A stretch of DNA of 64,000 nucleotides from Rhizobium sp. Q54 (GTDB lineage: Bacteria > Pseudomonadota > Alphaproteobacteria > UBA2966 > CAIVPW01): NCBI GenBank assembly GCA_945947575.1, contig CAMEYM010000015.1, forward strand, positions 1 to 64,000, in the 5' to 3' direction. Made by a program: the position numbers and the translations under genes. Below are positions 57,920-64,000 of this stretch, in pieces (positions within the stretch are counted from its first letter, which is position 1; every line of letters begins with the position of its first letter). The notes under the pieces were generated by a model, which saw nothing but the letters and a program-made list of their open reading frames with translations, had not been told where the DNA came from and made no database searches.

Positions 57920-58387
57920 ATGTGTAGGCTCGCCTTCGTTCTGGTGCTTGGCTTTTCGACGCTTGCGCTTGCCCAAGAGGCGCGGCCCCCAGACGCTCGG
58001 TCCAAAGTGATCGACGGGCATACTCTTGAGATCGACGGAGCGCTGGTGCGCGTGTTCGGCATCGAGGCGCCCGAGCGCGACGAAACCTGTCGGGTGCCGC
58101 AAGGGCGCTGGTCGTGTGGCGAGTTCTCCCGCGCCGCTCTCCACGACCTCATCCGCAACAAGGCTGTGACCTGCACGCCGGTAGACTCCGGTCGCTACAT
58201 GGGCATCACCGTGGCTCGCTGCACGGTCGGCGGCCGCGACATCGGTGCGGCCATGGTGTCGGGCGGCTGGGCGCTCGCCCAGCACGGCGCCTCACCGGAT
58301 TACGTGCCGCTTGAGACGCGGGCGCGCACCACCGGCGCGGGAGTGTGGCGCGGCGAGTTGACCGGTTTCGGCTACGCGGATCGCTAG
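57920..58387 (+). CDS. Exported staphylococcal-nuclease-like protein
   Basis: This is a 155-residue protein with a signal peptide (MCRLAFVLVLGFSTLALAQ) and an SNase-like fold: KVIDGHTLEIDGALVRVFGIEAPERDE (Arg and Glu of the active site present), WSCGEFSRAALHDLI, CTPVDSGRYMGITVARC and MVSGGWALAQ. The metal-binding Asp of the usual DGDT is His here (DGHT). Two to three Cys pairs suggest disulfides. It probably degrades nucleic acid in the periplasm or is a relic. The stop shares a CTAG with pncA. Spacing from thiI is short. Confidence 0.82.
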   Translation: MCRLAFVLVLGFSTLALAQEARPPDARSKVIDGHTLEIDGALVRVFGIEAPERDETCRVPQGRWSCGEFSRAALHDLIRNKAVTCTPVDSGRYMGITVARCTVGGRDIGAAMVSGGWALAQHGASPDYVPLETRARTTGAGVWRGELTGFGYADR

Positions 58388-59025
58388 GACTCGAGCCGCG
58401 CCGACTCCACCAGGCTAACTCCTGCCGCCGTCATCTCTGTGCGCGCGGCGGCCGCCGATCCGTTGAGATCGATCGCGCGCGTTGCGTCCTCGATCACCGT
58501 GGCGGTGAACCCCTCGCGGAGCGCGTCGAGCGCCGACCACTTCACGCAAAAGTCGAACGCCAGTCCGCACAGGTAGACGTGGTGGAAGCCACGGTCGCGC
58601 AAGTAGCCGGTGAGGCCGGTGCGCGTGCGCTGGTCGTTCTCATAGAACGCGGAGTAGGAGTCGATGCCGGGCCGGAACCCCTTGCGCACGATCATCTCGG
58701 CACGCGCGCGATCGAGATCGCGGTGGAACTCGGCGCCGGGGGTGCCTTGCACGCAATGGTCCGGCCACAGCACCTGCGCGCCGTAGGGGAGCGCCGTGGT
58801 CTCGAACGGCTGCCTGCCCTGGTGGGCGGAGGCAAACGACGCGTGCCGCGGCGAATGCCAGTCCTGGGTGAAGACGACGTGGGCGAACTGGCCCGCCAGG
58901 CGGTTGACGAGAGGGACGATGCGGTCGCCGTCAGGCACGGGCAAGGCGCCACCCGGACAAAAGTCGTTCTGGACATCGACGACGAGCAGCACATCCTGCT
59001 CGCTAGTGCGAAAGGAAATCGGCAT
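58384..59025 (-). CDS. pncA: Nicotinamidase (PncA family)
   Basis: This enzyme hydrolyses nicotinamide to nicotinate for NAD recycling. The catalytic Asp is in VVDVQNDFCPGGAL, metal ligands are in TQDWHSPRHASF, and the catalytic Cys is in CGLAFDFCVKWSALDA. The Lys is probably in VRKGFRPGIDSYSAF. Length from ATG 59025 is 213 residues; an upstream in-frame ATG at 59055 adds ten. The family (isochorismatase-like) is clear. It lies between the convergent nuclease gene and the co-directional pentapeptide-repeat gene, 51 bases further upstream. Confidence 0.92.
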   Translation of the reverse strand: MPISFRTSEQDVLLVVDVQNDFCPGGALPVPDGDRIVPLVNRLAGQFAHVVFTQDWHSPRHASFASAHQGRQPFETTALPYGAQVLWPDHCVQGTPGAEFHRDLDRARAEMIVRKGFRPGIDSYSAFYENDQRTRTGLTGYLRDRGFHHVYLCGLAFDFCVKWSALDALREGFTATVIEDATRAIDLNGSAAAARTEMTAAGVSLVESARLES

Positions 59026-59076: not shown

Positions 59077-60369
59077 CTAGTGGACGGCGCGGCGCGCCGG
59101 CATCGGGTCGGCGCGCTTGGGCGCCGGCGCCTCAACGGCGTGCGGGCCATGCTCGCGCGGCGTGCGGCCGGTAGTCGCGGCTGCGGCTTTCGCAGGTTCG
59201 CGCGGGGTGTGGCCGACCTCGTGGTGCGAATCGGCGACGCCGGGATCGGCGAGCGCCTGGCTCAGGTCGACGAACGCCAGATCGGCGTCGGCGAGCTTGG
59301 CGCCTTGGATATTGGTCGGCGCCAGCTTGCCGGTGAGGTGGCCCTTGCCATCGCGCAGCTCGACCGGCCTGAGGATGGCGTAGCCGAGCTTGGCGCGGCG
59401 CAAGTCCGCGTTGGTAAGCAGCGCGCCCGAGATGTTGCAGCGGCGGAGATCGGCTTCGCTCAGGTTCGCGTCCCGCAGGTCCGCAAGCAGCAGTTTGGCG
59501 CCGACAAGGTTGGCGCCGGATAGGTTGACGCCGCGCAGCCCGGCGCCGCTCAGGTAGATGCCGGCGAGCTGGGCGCCCTGCAGGTCGGCCCCTTCGAGCA
59601 CGGCTCGGGTGCCGAGGTTGCCGCCCGAGTCGAGCCACAGCACGTGCTCGCGCACGGCGGCCTGTATCTCCTCGGTCAGCTTCGCGGCGCCGAGGCAGAT
59701 CGATGCCTCGCGCAGGTCGGCCGACGCGAGATCGACTTCGGCGAGGAGAGCGCCGATCAGCCGCGCGCCGTTGAGGCGTGCCATGCCGAGCTTGGCGCCC
59801 TTAAGGTTGGCGCCGCCGAGATCGGCGCCGGTGAGCGCAGCCGACGTCAGGTCGGCGCCGCGCAAATCAGCGCCACGGAGATCGACCTGGTGGCCGGTGG
59901 AGTTGCGCAAGTTCGCTTCCTTCAAGGATGCGTTGCGCATGTTGGCGCTGGAGATCTTGGCGTTCTCAAGGTCCGTCTGATCGAGCGTGGCGCCGGTCAG
60001 GTCGGCGGTCTGGATGCGCTCGCTGCCGAGCAGTCCGCCGGGGCGCAGGTCGGAGCCCGCCATGCGGGCGCTGTTGAGCTTGGCGCCGGCGAGCTTCGCC
60101 CCGCGCAGATCGGCGCGCTCGAAGTTGGCGCCGGTGGCGACGGCACGCTCGAAGTTGGCGCCGTACAAGTCCGCGGAGCTGAAGTCGGCGCGGGTCAGAT
60201 CGCAGTTGTGGAAGTCCGCCCCGGACAGGCTCGCGTCATGCAGGTTGACGCCCGGGAGGCGTAGTCCGGACAGGTCCTGGCCGCGAAGGTCGGCCTTGGC
60301 CCCTCCAATTTGGCCGCGCACGAAACGGTCGTGGCGGACGAGGACGTTGACGAGTTCCTGAGGGGTCAC
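59077..60369 (-). CDS. Pentapeptide-repeat protein
   Basis: This is a 430-residue protein dominated by A(D/N)LxG-type pentapeptide repeats from about residue 24 to 355 (for example ADLRGQDLSGLRLPGVNLHDASLSGADF). It is predicted to form a right-handed quadrilateral beta-helix. A break near 220-250 (LTEEIQAAVREHVLWLDSGGNLG) holds a short helical insert. The C-terminal 60 residues are Pro/Ala/Arg-rich (HTPREPAKAAAA). GTG 60369 is chosen because AGGAG lies eight bases upstream; an ATG 69 bases earlier has no ribosome site. Function is unknown. Confidence 0.87.
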   Translation of the reverse strand: MTPQELVNVLVRHDRFVRGQIGGAKADLRGQDLSGLRLPGVNLHDASLSGADFHNCDLTRADFSSADLYGANFERAVATGANFERADLRGAKLAGAKLNSARMAGSDLRPGGLLGSERIQTADLTGATLDQTDLENAKISSANMRNASLKEANLRNSTGHQVDLRGADLRGADLTSAALTGADLGGANLKGAKLGMARLNGARLIGALLAEVDLASADLREASICLGAAKLTEEIQAAVREHVLWLDSGGNLGTRAVLEGADLQGAQLAGIYLSGAGLRGVNLSGANLVGAKLLLADLRDANLSEADLRRCNISGALLTNADLRRAKLGYAILRPVELRDGKGHLTGKLAPTNIQGAKLADADLAFVDLSQALADPGVADSHHEVGHTPREPAKAAAATTGRTPREHGPHAVEAPAPKRADPMPARRAVH

Positions 60370-60768
60370 GGTGTTTGCTCCTAGAGGCTGACCTAGGAAT
60401 GCCGCAACCCTGGGGTGAAGGTCTGTGAGGTGGCCCACAACCTAGGGGTCGGAGGACACAGGCAGCCCGTCTCTCGGTCGCGCCCCAACCCTTGCCAGCT
60501 TGGCCTACGCTATACTCGCAGCAATAGAACCGAAGGTGGTGCAATTCAACGCAGGGTAGTAAAGTCTGCTGGCTTGTGGACCATTGGGGTCCCGGCCCGG
60601 CATGGGAGTGCCGAGCCAGGAAGGTCAGGGCGGGGGATGGGCCAAGAGGCCTTTTGCGATGCGGAGCGATGCGCCCGCACGGCGCTGCCGTGGCGGTGCG
60701 AACGGTCGCATGCCCATCACTTTGGCCGCACTCTGTGGACAATCGGCCGGTTATCCCGCGCGCCAGGT
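60370..60768. other. Intergenic region, possible small RNA
   Basis: These 399 bases separate the starts and stops of two minus-strand genes and hold no convincing frame. A TATACT box is at 60511-60516 on the plus strand. Downstream lie a hairpin (CGGCA/TGCCG at 60598-60613, extended by GGC/GCC with one mismatch) and a weak terminator-like GGCC-AAGA-GGCC followed by TTTT (60640-60655). A transcript from about 60523 to 60655 is conceivable, but no known RNA family fits. Confidence 0.35.
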
Positions 60769-61290
60769 CTACGGGGCAGTAGCGTCGGCAACGAATACGT
60801 AGCCGCCATTGCGCACCGTGCGGATCATGCGCGGATTGTCCGGATCGTCGCCGAGCTTGCGGCGCAGGCGGTCGACCTTAACGTCGATGCTGCGATCGAA
60901 GGCGGGGGTATGCCGGTCACACAGCGGGTTGAGCAGCTGATCGCGGCTGAGCACGCGATTGGCATGGGTGACCAGAGTCTCACGCAACTTGCTGCGGCCG
61001 CTGACAGTCGCGATGCCGATGTCGTAGCGCTCGGGCAGGCGGCGCGTGATAGCGAGGCCATCTTCATCCCGCAGGGACCGGTCGACGATCGCCACGGCGA
61101 CGTCGCCGCCCCACAGAATCTGGCTGATGCGCTTGCCGTCAGGCAGCGCAGTGACGCGGAAGCCGGCCTGGGCAAGGGATGCCTCGATGATTTCGCGCAC
61201 ACCCGGGTCGTCGTCGATCACCAGCACGTGGCGCGCGGTCGGAGCCGGAGTGCGACCGCGGAGTGAGGCGATGACCCTGTCGGTCCGCAT
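60769..61290 (-). CDS. OmpR-family response regulator with a large internal deletion
   Basis: This is a 173-residue protein with the N-terminal half of a receiver (HVLVIDDDPGVREIIEASL, Asp near 70 in VAIVDRSLRDEDGL, then GIATVSGR). That half joins directly to the C-terminal half of an OmpR winged-helix domain (LVTHANRVLSRDQLL, FDRSIDVKVDRLRRKLGDDP, MIRTVRNGGYVFV). The normal middle of about 70 residues, with the conserved Lys, the linker and the first strands of the DNA-binding domain, is missing, but the frame is kept. A full member has about 240 residues. The ATG at 61290 lies inside the start of the divergent hybrid kinase gene. Confidence 0.82.
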   Translation of the reverse strand: MRTDRVIASLRGRTPAPTARHVLVIDDDPGVREIIEASLAQAGFRVTALPDGKRISQILWGGDVAVAIVDRSLRDEDGLAITRRLPERYDIGIATVSGRSKLRETLVTHANRVLSRDQLLNPLCDRHTPAFDRSIDVKVDRLRRKLGDDPDNPRMIRTVRNGGYVFVADATAP

Positions 61291-64000
61291 CACGCTCGCG
61301 ATGGTCGCCGTGGTCATCCTGACCGGCCTAACGGCCGCCGGACTCTCGTATCGGGGTCTGGAGCAGCGTCTGGTGCGCGAGGGTCTGGCGTTCCTCCAGG
61401 AGGAAGCGCGCCGCATCGCGCGCGACATCGAGGCCGGCACCGAGCTTGGCGCAGCCGAGCTTGGCGTGCTGGCCGAGGCGGCGGTCATCCAGGATCTGCG
61501 CGACAACCCGGACGAGGGGTACCGGCGCGTGCTGGCGGGGCAGTTCCTGTCCGCTGAGCTGCGCGCCAAGCCGGGATTCGCCCGCCTGCGGCTGGTCAGT
61601 CCGGCGACAGGGCGGGAGATCATCGCCGTCGAGCGTGATGCGCGCGGCGTCATCCAGACGATGCGCGACCGCGACTTGGACGAGGGCGAGCAGGCCGCGC
61701 TACTGGGGGTCGCCGCCACGCGCGGCCGTCTGGCGCTTGCCACCGTCGCGCCGGCGGCCGCAGCCGCGGGGATAGCGCGCGGGCGATTGACGCTACTGGC
61801 CACCGGCGGCGGCAACGCACAGGACGGCATCGTCATTGCCGATCTCGACCTCGGCACGATGCTGGCGGGGCGGGCCGCCGATCCGGCCGTGTCGGTCGTC
61901 TCGATGCGCGGCGAGCTCCTGCATCCGTTGGCGCTCGTGGCGGCGCCCGATTGGGATGTCGCGCGCGTCGTCACCGCCCTGCGCGGCGCGGATCGCGTTG
62001 CCTTCACCGTGCGCGTTGCTTCGGGCGTGCGCGAAGCCGTGGGCGTGGCGACCGCGAGCATCGCCGGCGGCTACCGCATCGCCGTTGTCACCACACGGCC
62101 GGTGGCATCGTTCCTCGCTGACGCGAATTCAATGCTGCGTTCAACGCTACTGGCAGCCGCGATCGCCGCGGTAGTTGCGGTGGGCCTTTCGATCTTGCTG
62201 GCGCGCTCCATCATCGAGCCGCTGTCGCGGATGACGGCGGCGGTGGCGCCAGGCGCCGACCGCCGCGCGATCAACCTGCCCATAGAGGCGCCGGGCGAAG
62301 TCGGAGTGCTGGCGCGGGCCTTCCAGCTGTCGCTCGATCAGGAGCGCCTGTTCAGCGCGGTCGCTGAAAACGTCGGCGAGGCGATCATGACCGTCAACGA
62401 TCGCTCCGAGATCGAGACGGCGAACTCCGCCGCTACACAGATGTACGGGTATGGCGACGGCGAGCTGATCGGATTGCCGCTCAACGCGCTCTCCGGTGAA
62501 CTGCCAGGGCGCCAGCCGGGCGACCTGATCGCGGCCCATGCCCTACGCCCGAGCCCTCGCCCGGGTGAGGACGGCGCCCAGGAGACTCTTGGTCGCCGCA
62601 AGGACGGCTCGCTTTTCCCGCTCGAGATGATCGTTAGCCACACCGTGGTCAACGGGCGGCTCTTCTTTATTGCGGCGACTCGCGACATCACTCAGCGGAA
62701 GCGCGCCGAGGCCGAACGACAGGAATCCGAGCGCCGCTTCGCCACCATGTTTCAGACCAGTCCGGCGCTGGTGACCATCACCAACCTGGACGACGGGCGC
62801 GTCTACGAGGTCAACAAGAGCTGGCTCGCCGCGTTCGGTCTTGAGCGCGACGCTGTCGTCGGTCATTCCATCGAGGAGCTCGGCATCGGGCTCAACTTCG
62901 ACGACCGCCGCCAGCTGCGCAACGCCCTCGCCATGTCAGGCTCCGTGCGGGACCTCGAGGTGCGCCTGCATCTGCGCGACGCCAAGGCGCTGGTGCTGCT
63001 CATGTCGGCCGAGGTGGTGCAGATCGACGGCCGCGCGCGCGTCATCACTACGAGCATCGACGTCACGGAATACCGCAAGAAAGAGGACCAGCTACGCCAG
63101 GCGCACCGCATGGACGCGGTCGGCCAGCTCGCCGGTGGCATTGCGCACGACTTCAATAACCTGCTCACCGTTATCCTCGGTACGTCCGAGTCCATGCGCG
63201 AGCTACTGCCGGCGCGCAGCCAGCGCCTGCGCGAGATGACCGACGTCGTCATCAACGCCGCAGACCGCGGTGCCGACCTGACCCGGCGGCTGCTGGCGTT
63301 CTCCCGTCGCCAGACTCTGGACCCCGAGGTGATCGATCCCAGCGACGCCATCCGCAGCTCGGAGATCATTCTGCGCCGCACGATGGGCGAAGACGTCGCC
63401 ATTCGCCTGTCCGTGTCACCCACGGTGAGCCGCGTCCACGTCGATCGCGGCCAGCTCGAGTCGGCGCTCCTCAACCTTGCAGTCAACGCGCGCGACGCCA
63501 TGCCCCACGGAGGCACCCTCACCATCGAGGCCGACGACAGCATGGTCGATGCCGCCAATGCGGCGCAATGCGGCGGCCTGAAGCCCGGCGCCTACGTGCG
63601 CATCGCGGTAAGTGACACCGGTACGGGCATGCCTCCTGAGGTCGCGGCGCGCGCCTTCGAGCCGTTCTTCACGACCAAGGGGCCAGGCAAGGGTACCGGC
63701 CTAGGCCTCAGCATGGTCTACGGATTCGTGACGCAGTCCGGCGGCACGGTACGCATCTTCAGCGAGCCAGGGCATGGCGCGCGTGTGACGATGTTCCTGC
63801 CGATGGCATCGCCGGCGCTCGCCGGAGGCGACACGAAGCCCGCGGAAGATTCTGTCAGCGCCGCAGCGGGCCAGATCACGGCGAGCGGCCTGACCGCACG
63901 CGTGCTCGTCGTCGAGGACGAGCCGAACGTGCGCGACCTCGTGCTGATGCAGCTTACTGCGCTGGGCTACACCGCCAACGCGGTCGAGGACGCGGCGTCG
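61271..64000 (+). CDS. Hybrid sensor histidine kinase (partial, runs off the window)
   Basis: This is a membrane-bound hybrid kinase of which 910 residues are seen. A first membrane span ([19 protein letters not shown]) precedes a periplasmic sensor (about 30-280). A second span ([19 protein letters not shown]), HAMP-like linker and two PAS domains (about 355-475 and 490-600) follow. The HisKA His is 626 ([11 protein letters not shown]), the ATPase is [27 protein letters not shown], and a receiver begins at [15 protein letters not shown] before the end. GGAGTGAGG precedes the ATG. It overlaps the divergent regulator gene by 20 bases. Confidence 0.92.

Follow-up and report, generated by a model that had tools for sequence, protein, structure and literature searches.

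A probable recent pseudogene remnant of an OmpR-type response regulator beside an intact hybrid histidine kinase in Rhizobium sp. Q54

The window, i.e. the whole stretch of 64,000 nucleotides of Rhizobium sp. Q54 DNA that was analysed, contains on its minus strand (60769-61290) an OmpR-type response regulator whose middle third is absent and whose reading frame is kept. Does such a frame specify a working short regulator, or is it what is left of a longer gene? An automatic pipeline would annotate a short response regulator paired with the neighbouring kinase; comparison with relatives points to a recent remnant. The features of the locus are listed below, with a genome of the same genus (G002) as reference.

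60769..60990, minus strand: kept 3' part of the regulator, ending in the stop codon 60769-60771; its winged-helix domain lacks the N-terminal beta-sheet
60990..60991, minus strand: joint at which 243 bp (81 codons) of the G002 ortholog are absent
60991..61253, minus strand: kept 5' part of the regulator, receiver beta1-beta4; native start absent
61253..61270, strand not applicable: second joint, at which 163 bp of intergenic DNA with the regulator start codon, found in G002, are absent
61271..64000, plus strand: intact hybrid histidine kinase of 1020 aa (ATG at 61271), extending beyond the end of the window

The minus-strand frame 60769-61293 reads through DIGIATVSGRSKLRETLVTHANRVLSRDQLL free of stops, in the order first part of the receiver, GIATVSGRSKLRETLVTHANRVLSRDQLL, remainder of the OmpR-type winged-helix domain and stop codon, and contains no frameshift. 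Numbered from 61293, the phospho-acceptor Asp is D71 (codon 61081-61083) and is kept, as are the beta4 Ser and the recognition helix. Measured against the three residues of a complete receiver (Asp, beta4 Ser/Thr and beta5 Lys), the window copy is incomplete: the conserved Lys is gone together with alpha4-beta5-alpha5. The winged-helix domain is likewise incomplete, the beta-sheet and the start of helix 1 being absent in comparison with full-length relatives. In Pfam searches Response_reg was matched at 44.6 bits, and the match to Trans_reg_C begins only at profile position 12 of 77.

The kinase is encoded head to head with this frame and comprises PAS domains, HisKA, HATPase_c and a C-terminal receiver. 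It is 86% identical to its G002 counterpart over the 910 aa compared.

A full-length ortholog of the regulator occupies the corresponding locus in G002. Gene order is common to the window contig (C15) and the G002 contig (C40) over about 18 kb, and DNA identity is about 83% on each flank of the gap. Homology and conserved gene order with this full-length member establish descent from OmpR/PhoB-type regulators. The G002 protein covers both Pfam profiles completely (Response_reg 1-111 of 111, at 80 bits; Trans_reg_C 1-77 of 77) and carries the conserved Lys in the context LPKPF. A more distant full-length ortholog, 63% identical to that of G002, was found in a further genome (G007). Anchored distances place an in-frame gap of 243 bp, or 81 codons, between Ser101 and Lys102 (same numbering). 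It starts just past the turn closing beta4 and takes alpha4, beta5 with the conserved Lys, alpha5 and the linker; on the winged-helix side it removes the N-terminal beta-sheet and the opening residues of helix 1. As 243 is divisible by three, this large deletion leaves the frame open.

An earlier note, made from the window alone, had described an OmpR-type regulator with its middle third gone in frame, and the frame, the Pfam matches and the G002 ortholog all confirm this. Its account of what was lost (receiver Lys and linker) and what was kept (phospho-acceptor Asp and recognition helix) also holds against G002. The loss of 'about 70 residues' is real, although alignment to G002 sets its size at 81 codons; the deletion edges, which the note proposed to map against full-length relatives, are those at Ser101/Lys102.

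A second difference, missed by the note, lies at the 5' end. The spacer between regulator and kinase is 163 bp longer in G002, and only about 17 bp separate the two stretches of the window that are homologous to G002. The window lacks the native GTG start and almost the whole intergenic region. A GTG start is available at the matching spot in G002 and G007. The in-frame starts left close to its 5' end in the window are the GTG at 61225-61227, which is internal and the first in-frame GTG of the kept 5' part, and ATG codons within the 5' coding sequence of the kinase, e.g. 61288-61290. The extent 60769-61290 given in the note implies a start at the ATG 61288-61290, which sits in the 5' end of the kinase gene and is not the native start of the regulator. 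The intergenic region is covered by the window and G002 only, with no outgroup spanning it; the 163-bp difference would be a loss in the window rather than a gain in G002, since G002 and G007 both still have the start codon. A promoter scan gave no match in either genome and hence no contrast between the two.

Other differences were observed within the shared 18 kb. At 60458/60459 G002 is longer by about 1.04 kb, with a gene for a TerC-family membrane protein, another homolog of which lies on contig C3 of the window's genome. At 58375-58418 it is longer by about 1.28 kb, with an acyltransferase (PF01757) gene. Between them, a long pentapeptide-repeat protein of 453 aa (59077-60438, minus strand) is about 92% identical in G002.

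All 70 aligned relatives are full length (227-245 aa), so that the sharing of the short form by orthologues, which the note had named as a refuting observation, was seen in 0 of 70, and a search at the level of the order returned none either. The kept sequence itself is unusual. Four residues of the window copy at conserved sites were never seen in 68 homologs: L104R, R87P, L72R and L123P, at positions where 100% of the homologs have L, 97% R, 76% L and 71% L, respectively; L72R adjoins the phospho-acceptor. None of the G002-specific residues displaces a comparably common residue in the same 68 homologs. Against G002, dN/dS is 0.126 for the kept regulator codons and 0.134 for the kinase; this equality indicates that most of the divergence arose under constraint, and the value still being low for the kept parts, the loss would be recent. 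Polarisation with G007 assigned 9 of the regulator changes to the window lineage and 4 to that of G002. Radical changes (BLOSUM62 of -2 or less) on the window lineage numbered 4 of 9 in the regulator and 1 of 20 in the kinase, whose changes were polarised with G004 (Fisher p = 0.022, on small counts). Radical changes are thus in excess, yet overall dN/dS stays at 0.126. Small as the numbers are, the substitutions point in the direction expected of a gene newly released from selection.

Taken together, these data argue for a recently inactivated gene, a pseudogene remnant beside an intact hybrid kinase, with a probability of about 0.78. Two inactivating lesions stand against intact orthologs: the loss of 81 codons, and a 5' end that lacks native start and intergenic region. 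With the drastic substitutions at conserved sites and the full-length orthologs elsewhere, they bear out the 'decaying gene' proposed in the note. The low dN/dS, the open frame, the in-frame nature of the large deletion and a predicted structure were counted against this reading; a low dN/dS with neither stop nor frameshift fits a recent loss and would fit continued selection as well. Most likely the loss is ordinary gene decay. On the window lineage, an in-frame deletion would have removed 81 codons from a head-to-head OmpR-type regulator, and a separate event its start codon and nearly all of the intergenic region. Translation of the leftover frame would have to begin at the internal GTG, for a product of 152 aa, or at an ATG within the kinase gene, the upstream one giving 173 aa, and the product, a receiver without alpha4-beta5-alpha5 joined to a winged-helix without its beta-sheet, most likely would not be a working regulator. 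The kinase may then signal via its own receiver, via another regulator, or not at all.

The alternative that survives best, though unlikely, is an assembly artefact: the organism would carry the gene at full length behind a normal intergenic region, and the assembler would have lost both stretches, e.g. from mixed strains. The assembly, in 40 contigs and with no 16S rRNA found, does have the look of a metagenome, and the two gaps are no more than 300 bp apart in a shared 18 kb that otherwise shows only small indels and the two gene-sized ones. However, direct repeats, which would favour slippage or assembly collapse, are lacking at the edges: the longest exact word that these have in common in G002 is at most 6 bp, which leaves nothing repeated for an assembler to collapse. 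The missing DNA was not found elsewhere in the assembly, and protein and missing-DNA searches of the same genome for a second full-length copy returned only paralogs (at most 49% protein identity). The kept pieces also bear unusual substitutions of their own, which an assembly gap would not produce.

Less probable still is a working short regulator, a fusion of half a receiver to the helix-turn-helix (HTH) acting free of phosphorylation or as a dominant-negative partner. The 'constitutive or dominant-negative regulator' of the note found no positive support, and keeps a slight chance because the frame is open, the deletion being in frame, and the dN/dS of the kept parts is low. An AlphaFold model of moderate confidence also leans this way (mean pLDDT 80.8, pTM 0.57, against 84.4 and 0.53 for a full-length relative), and it keeps the receiver strands and the HTH helices in position; its pLDDT is probably inflated by the alignment of full-length homologs. 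A Foldseek search with this model recovered OmpR-type proteins, the full-length matches aligning at an rmsd of 11-20 A, so the model does not demonstrate a working arrangement. Against such a regulator stand the incompleteness of both domains, the missing native start and leader, the substitutions at near-invariant sites and the absence of the form from every relative examined. Slightly fainter again is the chance that an expressed fusion, with most of a receiver joined in frame to an HTH, now serves the adjacent hybrid kinase as a phosphorylation-independent or decoy regulator.

A pseudogene remnant remains the preferred reading, and the locus would show cleanly how a two-component pair looks soon after regulator loss, with the kinase still intact; its importance beyond annotation is little. 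The joint sequence had, as expected, no match in a viral contig collection, and a literature search found no directly relevant paper. The nearest NCBIfam models are OmpR, VirG and TorR; the G002 ortholog matches them over its full length, and its scores stay under the cut-off in all 25 models listed. With the OmpR/PhoB family (Response_reg PF00072 and Trans_reg_C PF00486) the window copy has in common the order of its domains, the phospho-acceptor Asp and the recognition helix. What sets it apart is the gap of 81 residues, which spans parts of both domains and takes in the receiver Lys, and the absence of the native start. Two-component regulators that survive as pseudogene remnants form a recognised general kind. 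The window copy resembles them in its more than one deletion, its lost start and leader, its odd substitutions and the intact ortholog at the corresponding locus of a related species, and differs from them in that its frame is still open.
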